64,000 nucleotides of DNA from Rhodoferax sp. (GTDB taxonomy: Bacteria; Pseudomonadota; Gammaproteobacteria; Burkholderiales; Burkholderiaceae_C): contig NZ_JAQTWL010000001.1 in assembly GCF_028689295.1 (NCBI RefSeq), forward strand, positions 248,001 to 312,000. Reading direction: 5' to 3'. Made by a program: the position numbers and the translations under genes. Each line of letters starts with the position of its first letter. Positions within the stretch are counted from its first letter, which is position 1. A model generated the notes under the pieces. The model did not search any database and was not told the DNA's origin. It saw nothing but the letters and a program-made list of their open reading frames with translations. Shown here piece after piece: positions 40,102 to 48,380 of the stretch.

Positions 40102-41259
40102 ATGACTGATCTGCAAAAACGTTCGCTGCTCAAAGCAGCTGCTCTTACCGCGGTGGCCGCTGCCGCGCTGGTGGGCTGTGGCAAAAAGGAAGAGCCCGCT
40201 CCGGCACCCGCGCCGGTGGCCGCCGCGCCAGCGCCCAAGCCTGAGCCCCTCAAGATTGCCTTTGCCTACGTTGGCCCGGTCGGCGACGGTGGCTGGACCT
40301 TTGCCCATGACAATGGCCGCAAGGCGTTGGAAAAGGAATTTGGCGACAAGATTGCCACCTCCTTTGTCGAAAACGTGCCCGAATCGGCCGATGCCGAGCG
40401 TGTGCTGCGCGACATGGCGGGGCAGGGCAACAAGCTGATTTTCGGCACCACCTTTGGCTACATGGAGCCCATGCTCAAGGTGGCCGCTGACAACACGGGC
40501 GTCAAGTTCGAGCACGCCACCGGCTACAAACAAGCGGACAACATGCGCACCTACGACAGCCGCACCTATGAAGGCGCGTACATGGCCGGCGTGATCGCCG
40601 GCAAGATGACCAAGACCAACACGCTGGGGGTAGTGGGGTCGATCCCGATCCCTGAAGTGGTTCGCAACATCAACGCCTTCACGCTCGGCGCGCAAAGCAG
40701 CAACCCCAAGGTCAAGACCAAGGTGGTGTGGGTGAACGGCTGGTTCGACCCACCCAAAGAAACCGAAGCCGCCACCAGCCTGATCAACGGCGGCGCTGAC
40801 GTGCTGTTCCAGAACACCGATTCTCCCGCAGTGCTCAAGACCGCTGAAGCCAAGGGCAAGCGCGCCTTCGGCTGGGACTCCGACATGACCTCCTATGGTC
40901 CCAAAGCCCATCTGGCATCCGCCGTCATCAACTGGGGTCCGTACTACATCAAGGCCACCAAAGAAGCGCTGGACGGCAGTTGGAAAGCTGGCGCGGGAGC
41001 TCACTCCTGGTGGGGCGTGAAAGAGGGCGCCATTGACATCGTGTCGATCGCCGAAGACGTGCCCGCCGAGACCAAGGCCAAAGTGGAAGAGGTCAAAAAA
41101 GGCCTGGCAGACGGCAGCTTTGCCATCTGGAAAGGCCCCATTACCGACAACACCGGCAAGGTGCAGGTGGCCAAGGACAGCGTGGCTGACGACAAGTTCC
41201 TGGGCGGCCTGAACTTCTTCGTCAAGGGTGTCGAAGGCAAGGTGCCGGGCGCCAAGTAA
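40102..41259 (+). CDS. BMP-family substrate-binding lipoprotein
   Basis: A 385-residue periplasmic binding lipoprotein. The lipobox ALVGC puts the lipidated Cys at residue 26, followed by a Pro/Ala-rich linker (residues 30-48). The BMP domain has AFAYVGPVGDGGWTFAHDNGRK, then ENVPESADAERVLRDMAGQGNKLIFGTTFGY and AGVIAGKMTKTNTLGVVG. Members bind nucleosides or purine bases; here the genomic context favours purines. AAGGAAA precedes the ATG. A strong terminator follows. Confidence 0.93.
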   Translation: MTDLQKRSLLKAAALTAVAAAALVGCGKKEEPAPAPAPVAAAPAPKPEPLKIAFAYVGPVGDGGWTFAHDNGRKALEKEFGDKIATSFVENVPESADAERVLRDMAGQGNKLIFGTTFGYMEPMLKVAADNTGVKFEHATGYKQADNMRTYDSRTYEGAYMAGVIAGKMTKTNTLGVVGSIPIPEVVRNINAFTLGAQSSNPKVKTKVVWVNGWFDPPKETEAATSLINGGADVLFQNTDSPAVLKTAEAKGKRAFGWDSDMTSYGPKAHLASAVINWGPYYIKATKEALDGSWKAGAGAHSWWGVKEGAIDIVSIAEDVPAETKAKVEEVKKGLADGSFAIWKGPITDNTGKVQVAKDSVADDKFLGGLNFFVKGVEGKVPGAK

Positions 41260-41280
41260 AGCGGGTTTAAACCCCGAAGC

Positions 41281-41305
41281 AAGCCGCCTTCGGGCGGCTT
41301 TTTTT
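41281..41305 (+). terminator. Rho-independent terminator of the BMP operon
   Basis: AAGCCGCC-TTCG-GGCGGCTT (41281-41300) followed by T-run to 41305. An 8-bp stem with a stable TTCG tetraloop 21 bases after the binding-protein stop. Confidence 0.9.
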
Positions 41306-41328
41306 GCGGACTGCGTACGAGGCGGATC

Positions 41329-41409
41329 GGCGGGGATGGGGCAGACGCCGGGCGCTCAGCGTCCTTCGGACTTTTTAATGTCGCGCCCAACATCTGCCCC
41401 ATCCCCGCC
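41329..41409. repeat. Long imperfect inverted repeat with inner mini-terminator
   Basis: Arms of 27 bases (41329-41355 and 41383-41409) match at 24 positions. The loop contains GTCC-TTC-GGAC followed by five T (about 41361-41375), itself a small terminator-like hairpin. It lies at the edge of the debris block that separates the purine transporter from the deaminase gene. Confidence 0.7.
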
Positions 41410-41552
41410 AAGCGTTGCTGACTGATCAGGTCTGGGTCATTGGGACAGTGGTGCCAACTACTGTTTCAGAGCCGTTGCTGCCGCTCACGGGGACATCTCG
41501 TAAATCAAGTACGCGGTACCTGACACTCAGGAATACCCGCTTTAGGGAAGTC
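41410..41552. other. Short unassigned stretch before the IS91 remnant
   Basis: No gene or RNA recognised. An open frame crossing it on the plus strand is the shadow of the transposase remnant on the other strand. Confidence 0.4.
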
Positions 41553-42027
41553 CAGTATTCACGTTCATGTCCCCAAAGAAGTTGCGCAGCCGTTTGGGCA
41601 CGGACAGCACCCACTGGCGCACCGGCAGCCGGGGGAAGACGTGGTCCGTCAGGTGTGCCGCTGTCTCCACCATGCGCCGTGTGTTGCACGAGGGGCAGAC
41701 GCCACGGCCCTTACAGGAGAAGGCTACGAAGTAGGCGTGCCCGCAATCACCACAGCGGGCGCGGGCAAAACCGTGGGCAAAGATGCCGCATTCGAGGTAT
41801 TTACGAAAGGCCTGGCGCACAAAGGGCTATGGCGTGTGGTGGTCGCCCTAGCCGTCGAACTGACCCGCACTGGCCATCGCGTGCCAGGTCTCGAAGTGTT
41901 CGGCAATGGTTTGGTAAAGCAGCGTGCGCTCAGGATGGCGCGGGTTGTAGAGTTTGAGTTTGCCTCGCGCTGGCCCACCCGCGTGCGGATGCAAATGCGA
42001 TTGCGCTGGACGGTCGACGGTGGGCAT
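41545..42027 (-). pseudogene. IS91-family transposase remnant
   Basis: On the minus strand a start codon at 42027 begins MPTVDRPAQSH. The frame continues NPRHPERTLLYQTIAEHFETWHAMASAGQFDG before a TAG. A second TAG follows 8 codons later. The same frame then resumes with RQAFRKYLECGIFAHGFARARCGDCGH, AFSCKGRGVCPSCNTRRM and VRQWVLSVPKRLR. This is the N-terminal zinc-binding region of IS91-type (Y2, rolling-circle-like) transposases. The catalytic tyrosine domain is absent, since homology ends at about 41560. With two in-frame stops and a truncation, it is inactive. Confidence 0.85.
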
Positions 42028-42242
42028 GGGGCAGTGCCAGCGGGGGCTGGGTGCCTGATGATACTTGGGTTATATCCAGCATTGTGCATTCTCTGCTGTC
42101 AGCGGGTGGCTCAATCACTCCTGAATTAATAGCTTCTTGCGAACATTCCACGAGGGCTTGAGGCCAAAAATACAAGAACACCCGCAGTCTGCACACAGCC
42201 CGCTTCAGACTGCACCCCAGCACGGCTGCAAGCCACGTCCCC

Positions 42243-42568
42243 TCACCTCTCCACGCCATGCAGAATCCGCCACTGTTTGACCAGTGCATAGATCGCCGGG
42301 ATCACCGCTAGCGTCAGCACCGTGCTGGAGATCATGCCACCTACCATCGGTGCGGCGATGCGGCTCATCACTTCAGAACCCGTGCCCGTGCCCACAAAAT
42401 CGGCAGCAGACCCGCCATGATGGCCACCACCGTCATCATCTTGGGGCGCACGCGTTCCACCGCACCTTCCATCACGGCGGCGTAGAGGTCGGCCACCGTT
42501 GGGACACGTTTTTCTTCCTGGCATTTTTCTTTAGCTTCCTTCCACGCATGATCCAGATAAATCGGCAT
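42243..42568 (-). pseudogene. CusA/CzcA-type RND heavy-metal pump, C-terminal remnant
   Basis: The frame from 42568 reads [20 protein letters not shown], then [20 protein letters not shown], matching the last transmembrane region of CusA-type RND pumps. It shifts frame near 42391-42394. The neighbouring frame continues [20 protein letters not shown] and [13 protein letters not shown] to a stop at 42243. One missing G in the TGTGGG run explains the shift. The other 900 or so residues of the pump are absent. It is a fossil of a metal-resistance gene; homology seems to begin a little before 42568. Confidence 0.85.
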
Positions 42569-42695
42569 GAACGCAATGACGGCGAGAACTTGTCACGGTC
42601 CAGTAAATTAAGCTAACATGACAAATGGGTCAGACACTATATTTTCAAAATTGCACTTCAACCTTGAATCTGCTTGAGTTAAATAGGGGAAATTT

Positions 42696-43811
42696 ATGAA
42701 ATTAATAAGGTATATCTCCGTAGCGATTGCGGCGCTCGCTTTGATGTTTTCGGGTGCGAGCCAGGCGGCATCGTCCTACAATTTCACCACCTGCGGTGCC
42801 ACCGGCCCGACCGGGCCCTCGCAGGGTAACTGCGACGCGGCTTACAGCGGCACCACTCTCGCTGGCGCAGTCACGATGAGCGGCGGCATCCAGACCTGGA
42901 CCGTACCCACCACCGGCACCTACCGCATCGAGGTCTCCGGCGCGAAAGGTGGCGACTCCATCGCCGGCGACAACGGCACCTTCATCGGTGGCAGCGGTGC
43001 GACCATCGGGGGCGACTTCCATCTCACCGCAGGTGAACAGATCAACATCCTGATCGGCCAGGAAGCCCCGACGGTGCCGACCGCCCCCAGCGATAGCCCA
43101 CTCTCGGGCGGCGGTGGCGGCAGCTTCGTCTGGCAGGTGACGGGAAATACGCTGCTGATTGCAGCCGGCGGCGGCGGCGGCGCCGGCGATGGCTACAACA
43201 GCATTGGCGGTAACGGAGCGGACGGCGTCGCCACGGGCGCTGGTTCCCTGCCTGCCGGCGTTGATGTCTGCGCTTCGCTTGCCGCGCCTGGTGGGGGATG
43301 GACGACTACCTACTACACCTGCGGCGATTTCCACGCTGGCGGGGGCGCCGGCTGGAACTCGAATGGCGTGATCAACGCCGATTCCTGCTCTAACGGCACA
43401 GGCACAGACGCTCTCAGTCCGCTGAACGGCGGCACTGGCGGCGAGGGTAACGATGACCTCGAGCCCGAAACCGGGCCCGGTGGCTTCGGCGGCGGCGGCG
43501 GCTCCGCGACCCAGTGCGGCTCCACCGGTGGCGGTGGCGGTGGCGGCTACACCGGCGGCGCCGGCCTGGGCTGCTCCGCAACCGACGGATGCGGCCCCGG
43601 CGGGGGTGGCGGTGGTTCCTTCAACTCGGGCGCCAACCCGACAGCCCTCAACGGCGCGAATGCCGGCGACGGGGTAGTGACAATTACCGCTGTCAGCGCA
43701 GCCCCCGTCGCGGCAATCCCCACCCTTTCCCAATGGGCGCTGCTGATGCTGGCGCTGATGATCGTCGGTGCGGCCGGACTGTACACCAGGGTGTCCAGAC
43801 CACAGGCCTGA
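42696..43811 (+). CDS. Exported ALK/LTK-like glycine-rich protein with IPTL-CTERM tail
   Basis: A 371-residue protein. The signal peptide (residues 1-24) ends SGASQA. Residues 28-310 resemble the glycine-rich domain of ALK/LTK receptors: YNFTTCGATGPTGPSQGNC, GIQTWTVPTTGTYRIEVSGAKGG, INILIGQ, LLIAAGGGGG and a FGGGGG...GGGGGGGYTGG block. The C-terminus is an IPTL-CTERM sorting signal: AIPTLSQWALLML, a hydrophobic helix, and basic TRVSRPQA. Such tails are processed by exosortase H-type enzymes. It is probably a surface or exported protein. AGGGGA precedes the ATG. The paralogue at 47508-48380 shares the layout. Confidence 0.88.
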   Translation: MKLIRYISVAIAALALMFSGASQAASSYNFTTCGATGPTGPSQGNCDAAYSGTTLAGAVTMSGGIQTWTVPTTGTYRIEVSGAKGGDSIAGDNGTFIGGSGATIGGDFHLTAGEQINILIGQEAPTVPTAPSDSPLSGGGGGSFVWQVTGNTLLIAAGGGGGAGDGYNSIGGNGADGVATGAGSLPAGVDVCASLAAPGGGWTTTYYTCGDFHAGGGAGWNSNGVINADSCSNGTGTDALSPLNGGTGGEGNDDLEPETGPGGFGGGGGSATQCGSTGGGGGGGYTGGAGLGCSATDGCGPGGGGGGSFNSGANPTALNGANAGDGVVTITAVSAAPVAAIPTLSQWALLMLALMIVGAAGLYTRVSRPQA

Positions 43812-45301
<1,490 letters not shown>

Positions 45302-47349: not shown

Positions 47350-47507
47350 ACCCGCGCAAAGGCTGTCACAACACCCGTAGTGCTGAACTTGCCATGCATC
47401 TTCTTATAGGAGAGAATGCCCGCCAGATATCGGCATCGGTATCTTCAAGCTTGCACATTGCCATATGAATGCTTGTGCTCATCTTCCATACACAATTAAG
47501 GCCGCTT

Positions 47508-48380
47508 ATGAAACACACAAAGATAGCCCTCACAACGGTAATGTTCGCATTCTGCATGGCGGCAGCGAATGCCGCAACTGCGACCTTTAACTTCACTGGC
47601 GCGGAACAGCAGTGGGTCGTGCCGACTGGCGTTACCCAAGTGGGCATTGACGCTTCGGGCGCAAGCGGCTGGTCGGGTGAGAATGCTGGCGGACGCGGGG
47701 CCAATGCCACCGGCTCGCTGAATGTCACGCCTGGCGAAACGATCTACATCTATGTCGGAGGACAGGGTACTGTGGCGACGGTCCTCAACACCCCGATGGG
47801 CGGCGGCTTCAACGGCGGTGGACATGGCCAATCCAACTACACTGACCCCGTCAATTCAGTGGGCGGCGGCGGGGGTGCATCCGATGTGCGCCAGGGCGGC
47901 AATGGCCTGGCCAATCGTCGTCTCGTCGCAGCTGGCGGGGGCGGGTCCACTGACAATACCGGGACCTGTGGCGGTGACGGCGGCGGCTTGACCGGTTTGG
48001 ACGCCTGTGTTCTTGACTCTTACCATAATGGCAAGGGCGCTACCCAGTCAGCTGGGGGAGATGCGGGAGGCGCCCTTGGTCAGGGTGGCAATGCGGATAA
48101 CACCATGACTCCGTGGAACGGCGGCGGCGGCGGTGGATATTACGGTGGTGGCGTATCCACCGAACATTCCGGCGGCGGCGGCGGCTCTTCGTACATCGGG
48201 GGGGTGACTGGTGGTGCGATGCTCGCCGGGCAAGTTACAGGTGATGGACAGATTGTGTTGACCTACTCTATCAACGCAGCAGTTCAGGCGATCCCCACTC
48301 TCTCTGAATGGGGCATGATCATCCTGTCTGGATTGATGGTATTGGGTACCTTTTTGGTACTGCGCCGCAGGCAGATGTAA
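47508..48380 (+). CDS. Exported glycine-rich protein with IPTL-CTERM tail (second copy)
   Basis: A 290-residue protein. The signal peptide ends AAANA (about residue 22). Residues 24-255 form a glycine-rich domain (FNFTGAEQQWVVPTGVTQVGID, IYIYVGGQG, GGGGGASDVRQGG, RRLVAAGGGGS, GGGGGGYYGGG, GGGGGSSYIGG), as in bacterial proteins of the Gly_rich/PF12810 type. The C-terminus AIPTLSEWGMIILSGLM, hydrophobic helix and LRRRQM is a textbook IPTL-CTERM signal. It lacks the FTTCGA block of the first copy. AAGG precedes ATG 47508. A terminator follows at 48401-48424. Confidence 0.88.
   Translation: MKHTKIALTTVMFAFCMAAANAATATFNFTGAEQQWVVPTGVTQVGIDASGASGWSGENAGGRGANATGSLNVTPGETIYIYVGGQGTVATVLNTPMGGGFNGGGHGQSNYTDPVNSVGGGGGASDVRQGGNGLANRRLVAAGGGGSTDNTGTCGGDGGGLTGLDACVLDSYHNGKGATQSAGGDAGGALGQGGNADNTMTPWNGGGGGGYYGGGVSTEHSGGGGGSSYIGGVTGGAMLAGQVTGDGQIVLTYSINAAVQAIPTLSEWGMIILSGLMVLGTFLVLRRRQM

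Follow-up and report, generated by a model that had tools for sequence, protein, structure and literature searches.

The GRD1 Locus and Its Product

The stretch analyzed here (the window) comprises 64,000 nucleotides of contig NZ_JAQTWL010000001.1 of Rhodoferax sp. (assembly GCF_028689295.1, positions 248,001 to 312,000). It contains an open reading frame (ORF), GRD1, whose product carries a TG domain, that is, a TNF-like beta-sandwich with a glycine-rich insertion, of the type found in the ligand-binding region of the animal receptors ALK and LTK (Table 1). A preliminary description, made from the letters alone, had reported a series of motifs resembling this region. All of them were found, and in the order claimed: FTTCGA (residues 30–35), GIQTWTVP (64–71), LIGQ (119–122), LLIAAGGGGG (153–162) and the glycine runs, of which five contain at least four residues. 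IPTLSQW follows at residues 341–347, and the protein ends after the IPTL helix. Glycine accounts for 28% of residues 26–338. Of the eight cysteines, Cys33 and Cys46 pair with those of the ALK block FTTCGA..C in the phmmer alignment. At the N-terminus, the predicted structure has a helix at residues 2–18. Scans of Pfam and NCBIfam returned C-terminal sorting-signal models only and no EGF-like, kinase or other signaling domain.

Table 1. Coordinates of GRD1, its parts and the surrounding features in the window.
Feature	Position	Strand	Remarks
GRD1 ORF	42696..43811	+	ATG start; 371 aa; ALK-type TG-domain protein, IPTL-CTERM, predicted export
Signal-peptide-like start, residues 1–25 (MKLIRYISVAIAALALMFSGASQAA)	42696..42770	+	Read by eye from sequence
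TG domain (TNF-like beta-sandwich and glycine-rich insertion), residues 26–335	42771..43700	+	About 310 residues
N-terminal ALK-type block (FTTCGATGPTGPSQGNC, GIQTWTVP, LIGQ), residues 26–136	42771..43103	+
Glycine-rich insertion, residues 137–312	43104..43631	+	Conserved Gly runs, variable-length loops between
IPTL-CTERM sorting signal and C-terminal helix, residues 339–366	43710..43793	+	PF18203, TIGR04174, model helix 346–366
About 2.9-kb insertion separating the Bmp and adenosine deaminase genes	41306..44245	.	Absent at same junction in four relatives
IS91/ISPps1-like transposase remnant, N-terminal part (residues 3–134 of 520)	41575..41970	-	PF14319
RND efflux pump gene fragment, C-terminal end	42243..42524	-	PF00873, E 7.8e-8
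IS91/ISPps1-like transposase remnant, C-terminal part (residues 473–519, two frames)	43996..44129	-
GRD2, second glycine-rich IPTL-CTERM protein	47469..48380	+	PF12810-type, without ALK-type N-terminal block

Homology to the ALK/LTK Ligand-Binding Region

The ALK-type TG domain of bacterial GRD1 is genuine, and the similarity is strong. Searched with phmmer against PDB sequences, the whole protein matched LTK (E 3.8e-13) and ALK (E 6.9e-10), and residues 26–136 alone, with 19% glycine, matched ALK at E 7.8e-16. The glycine-rich remainder alone (residues 137–337, 201 aa) gave no match at E ≤ 1 in a single-sequence search and thus adds no independent evidence by that route. A profile built from 51 bacterial relatives matched ALK at 3.7e-36 over profile positions 27–321; single-sequence evidence thus comes from the N-terminal part, and the profile of the family widens it to the domain as a whole. 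One segment-wise shuffle of residues 26–338 produced no match at E ≤ 1; together with the match of residues 26–136, this rules out a composition artifact as the source of the ALK similarity and of the motif matches. The proposed homology to the ALK/LTK glycine-rich domain was borne out.

The same description had spoken of a PF12810-type family, a wording not supported for GRD1: the curated cut-off of PF12810 (ALK_LTK_GRD, 24.5 bits) was not reached, and nothing was obtained with this model at E ≤ 1, whereas GRD2, located 3.7 kb downstream, matches it. PF12810 matches at E ≤ 0.01 were present in 21 of the 51 members of the relative set A1. GRD1-type and GRD2-type family profiles aligned with an hhalign probability of 99.8 over 234 columns, a span that includes their shared C-terminal signal. 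In a tree of 85 rows and 135 columns, a 100/100 branch separated 12 GRD2-type rows from the ALK-type side, on which ALK and LTK fell; their place within that side was not settled, long branches were flagged, and the split is partly by construction because the first block is missing from the GRD2 rows. GRD1 falls into a distinct "ALK-type" subfamily, nearer to animal ALK than to PF12810-type bacterial proteins, and the Pfam ALK/LTK model misses it, although it is nearer to ALK than a protein which that model finds. Bacterial homologs of the ALK glycine-rich domain are already implied by the Pfam family; new here are the distinct ALK-type subfamily, the match in fold, and the setting of GRD1 with an exosortase and in an insertion. 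We found no description of this subfamily in the open-licence literature searched, and no mention of a bacterial ALK-type domain in the available portions of PMC13243192, PMC10605310, PMC6851490 and PMC4658194.

Predicted Fold and Glycine-Rich Scaffold

The predicted GRD1 model can be superposed on structures of ALK over its residues 25–335 (253 aligned; ALK 680–986), that is, over the domain, which supports membership of the TG fold and, as far as the overall fold goes, agrees with the structural check proposed at the outset. In ALK, polyglycine II (polyproline II-like) helices form a bundle with 14 segments between 740 and 956 (PMC13243192). GRD1 may form such helices too, as the superposition of its model on ALK 680–986 indirectly suggests; the predicted local distance difference test score (pLDDT) is 50–77 in ten-residue blocks of residues 191–280.

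The Gly-run blocks are conserved among relatives (six ten-residue blocks have a mean entropy of 0.45–1.0 bits per column), whereas several of the intervening loops score above 2 bits and differ in length (46–58, 17–37 and 4–21 residues). The GRD1 family thus displays the plan of conserved Gly-rich motifs with variable segments between them, as defined for the phage adhesin gp38, whose variable loops are tied to host range (PMC6851490). A conserved scaffold with variable loops would also suit a structural matrix or surface-coat protein, in which a glycine-helix bundle forms a stiff, stable framework and binds no specific partner, and PEP-CTERM proteins may form part of the EPS (PMC9850573); we regard such a role for GRD1 as rather unlikely.

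Sorting Signal and Exosortase

The C-terminal signal of GRD1 scores 25.0 bits with PF18203 (cut-off 20.8) and 24.8 bits with TIGR04174 (cut-off 20.5). In exosortase systems, IPTL-CTERM is best understood as a processed sorting signal rather than a permanent anchor. The initial view of GRD1 as an exported protein with an IPTL-CTERM anchor can be retained in part: the export-type start and the above-cut-off signal are present, and a sorting signal fits better than a lasting anchor. A gene for the exosortase XrtH was identified in the same genome (contig C55, 80702–81172; 197.1 bits, cut-off 86). XrtH exceeds the cut-off in five of 60 relatives and, within the genus, in four of 36 genomes with this one counted. 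Seven of the genome's ten IPTL-CTERM matches lie on the 87-kb contig of XrtH (G000:C55:28300-34175 and 80702-86894). Our literature search found no paper on IPTL-CTERM together with an exosortase.

Distribution of Relatives

Matches to GRD1 at E ≤ 1e-3 were obtained for 1366 of 7984 scored candidates, with Cocleimonas, Bacillus, Halioglobus and Bacteroidia among the named hosts. Relatives are numerous in metagenomes but scattered, and the nearest are 50–55% identical. Among the 120 matches listed, a hand count of the precomputed column gave IPTL-CTERM in 24, the type IX secretion system signal PF18962 in 17, PEP-CTERM in one, PKD-type domains in six and PF12810 in 27. Two relatives (P0006 and P0010) each carry the N-terminal block in two copies. 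Among 60 genomes of the genus and order, some of them incomplete, a whole match occurs only in GRD1's own, and three others (G001, G021 and G025) hold partial stretches. The own genome is likewise the only one with a whole match among 369 of the class, with at most five candidates scored per genome, and the single other match there is a tail. A scan of genome contigs gave at least 591 pattern matches, with four confirmed among the matches listed, and carries little weight for spread.

A contig of a Nanohalarchaeota metagenome-assembled genome (MAG) encodes an ALK-type protein (L021:3185-4420) with the end strand EGHGTV, compared with EGHGEV in ALK. Some bacterial and phage proteins with this domain (P0166, P0230 and BFVD rows) carry the name 'receptor protein-tyrosine kinase'; no kinase appears in the Pfam lists precomputed for P0166 and P0230, so the name looks carried over from ALK.

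The Insertion Between IS91 Remnants

GRD1 lies in an insertion between the Bmp and adenosine deaminase genes. Among 20 Bmp loci compared, the adenosine deaminase gene adjoins Bmp after 67–219 bp in four (L028, L029, L036 and L040); at the others it falls outside the fetched stretch, which in GRD1's own genome was too short to include it. The flanking matches are 1 bp apart in L028 and 11 bp apart in L029, the former placing the insertion at about the coordinates of Table 1. From left to right, the insertion holds the N-terminal transposase remnant, the resistance-nodulation-division (RND) pump fragment, GRD1 and the C-terminal transposase remnant, an order that corresponds to two broken copies around a passenger and not to one interrupted copy. 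Of the 20 plasmid matches to 41000–44300 that were listed, with 3224 further records beyond them, 16 were IS91/ISPps1 transposases, one was a putative transposase and three had no annotated gene. GRD1 was probably acquired by horizontal transfer in this insertion, and IS91 elements may have had a part in it.

Broken transposase pieces and a pump fragment as flanks, and whole occurrence in one of 60 related genomes, would also be expected if GRD1 were a functionless passenger of a decaying insertion. Nevertheless, the frame is open, the signal peptide, Cys pair, family-invariant residues and C-terminal signal are intact, XrtH is present in the genome, and the G+C content at third codon positions (0.77; GRD2, 0.64) is inside the range of five neighboring host genes (0.75–0.79). 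We consider a functionless passenger very unlikely.

Just within the left edge of the insertion is a 27-nt inverted repeat (89%; 41329–41355 and 41383–41409). Parts of the 41329–41409 stretch recur on genome contigs C43 and C69, and it is perhaps a dispersed palindromic element. Another stretch of the genome (G000:C21:34124-34428) is 80% identical to the RND-pump fragment, so the fragment in the insertion has not been copied from it recently.

Possible Function of GRD1

On balance, we lean towards GRD1 being a surface or matrix binder sorted by an exosortase, with a domain of the ALK/LTK-region family and a gene acquired horizontally in an IS91-flanked insertion. The adhesive or ligand-binding role suggested in the preliminary description remains putative. 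The protein would be synthesized with a signal peptide and pass the inner membrane, presumably through Sec, and its C-terminal IPTL helix would retain it there. XrtH, encoded elsewhere in the genome, would recognize and process the IPTL signal, and GRD1 would end up on the outside of the cell or within the extracellular matrix, where a rigid Gly-helix scaffold would most likely expose variable loops to a partner on a surface or in the matrix, be it a glycan, EPS or another cell.

The ALK loop Y966–V972 overlaps the ALKAL site (PMC12354906); in a hand-read profile alignment, uncertain at this loop, it aligns to PTALNGA in GRD1 with one of seven residues identical. Because this loop is not conserved and EGF-like and kinase domains are lacking, a surface-binding role is more likely for GRD1 than that of a receptor. 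A receptor-like sensor with a secreted helical peptide as its ligand, in the manner of ALK and ALKAL, is thus highly improbable, even though the homology spans the ligand-binding region.

Several points weigh against a sorted surface binder. The IPTL score of 25 bits is modest, and the papers cited deal with PEP-CTERM and not IPTL-CTERM proteins. Several Gly runs are located in the blocks of low pLDDT, and the variability of the loops equally fits relaxed constraint. The nearest relatives, only 50–55% identical, are too distant for a selection test on GRD1 itself, and genes located in decayed insertions may lack a function. Moreover, a viral model, BFVD A0A0P0YMU3, fits GRD1 about as well as ALK does (E 1.9e-18; template modeling score 0.63 by query; 36% identity).

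Adoption of a phage tail adhesin domain by the host, or its carriage by a mobile element, would still make GRD1 a binder, but one of phage origin. In IMG/VR viral DNA, none of nine pattern matches was confirmed, and the phage records gave two matches, both to one Synechococcus phage at 20% coverage; predicted viral structures, on the other hand, match GRD1 well. We judge this origin improbable.

Origin of the Animal Domain and Comparison With Known Systems

The ligand-binding domain of ALK and LTK is part of a cancer-drug target, and few relatives of its fold have been solved; a bacterial ALK-type domain bears on its source. We tentatively raise the possibility that the animal domain descends from, or has a direct common source with, a microbial (bacterial, archaeal or phage) surface-recognition domain, as a captured adhesin fused to a kinase. 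If so, the ALK-type TG proteins of bacteria and one archaeal MAG contig would be close kin of the animal domain and still sortable surface binders, carried between lineages by mobile elements. With a soluble bacterial form free of receptor and hormone, the glycine-helix scaffold and its loop-based binding could be studied on their own.

GRD1 shares the TG ligand-binding domain with the ALK/LTK receptor tyrosine kinases; unlike them, it lacks EGF-like, MAM and kinase domains and a conserved ALKAL-binding loop, and carries IPTL-CTERM. It resembles bacterial PF12810 proteins such as GRD2 as a Gly-rich protein with IPTL-CTERM. Among the viral and phage Gly-rich proteins compared (Pam3 fibre 7ypx, Bxb1 tail tip 9d93, phrog_22713 and S16 gp38), those with solved structures belong to the virion and match GRD1 far more weakly than ALK does. 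The 50 structure-match rows listed did not include gp38, which has conserved Gly-rich blocks and variable loops in common with the GRD1 family. With exosortase substrates (IPTL-CTERM/XrtH, PEP-CTERM), GRD1 shares the C-terminal signal and a cognate XrtH in the genome; its passenger differs in being an ALK-type TG domain, and its processing is predicted.
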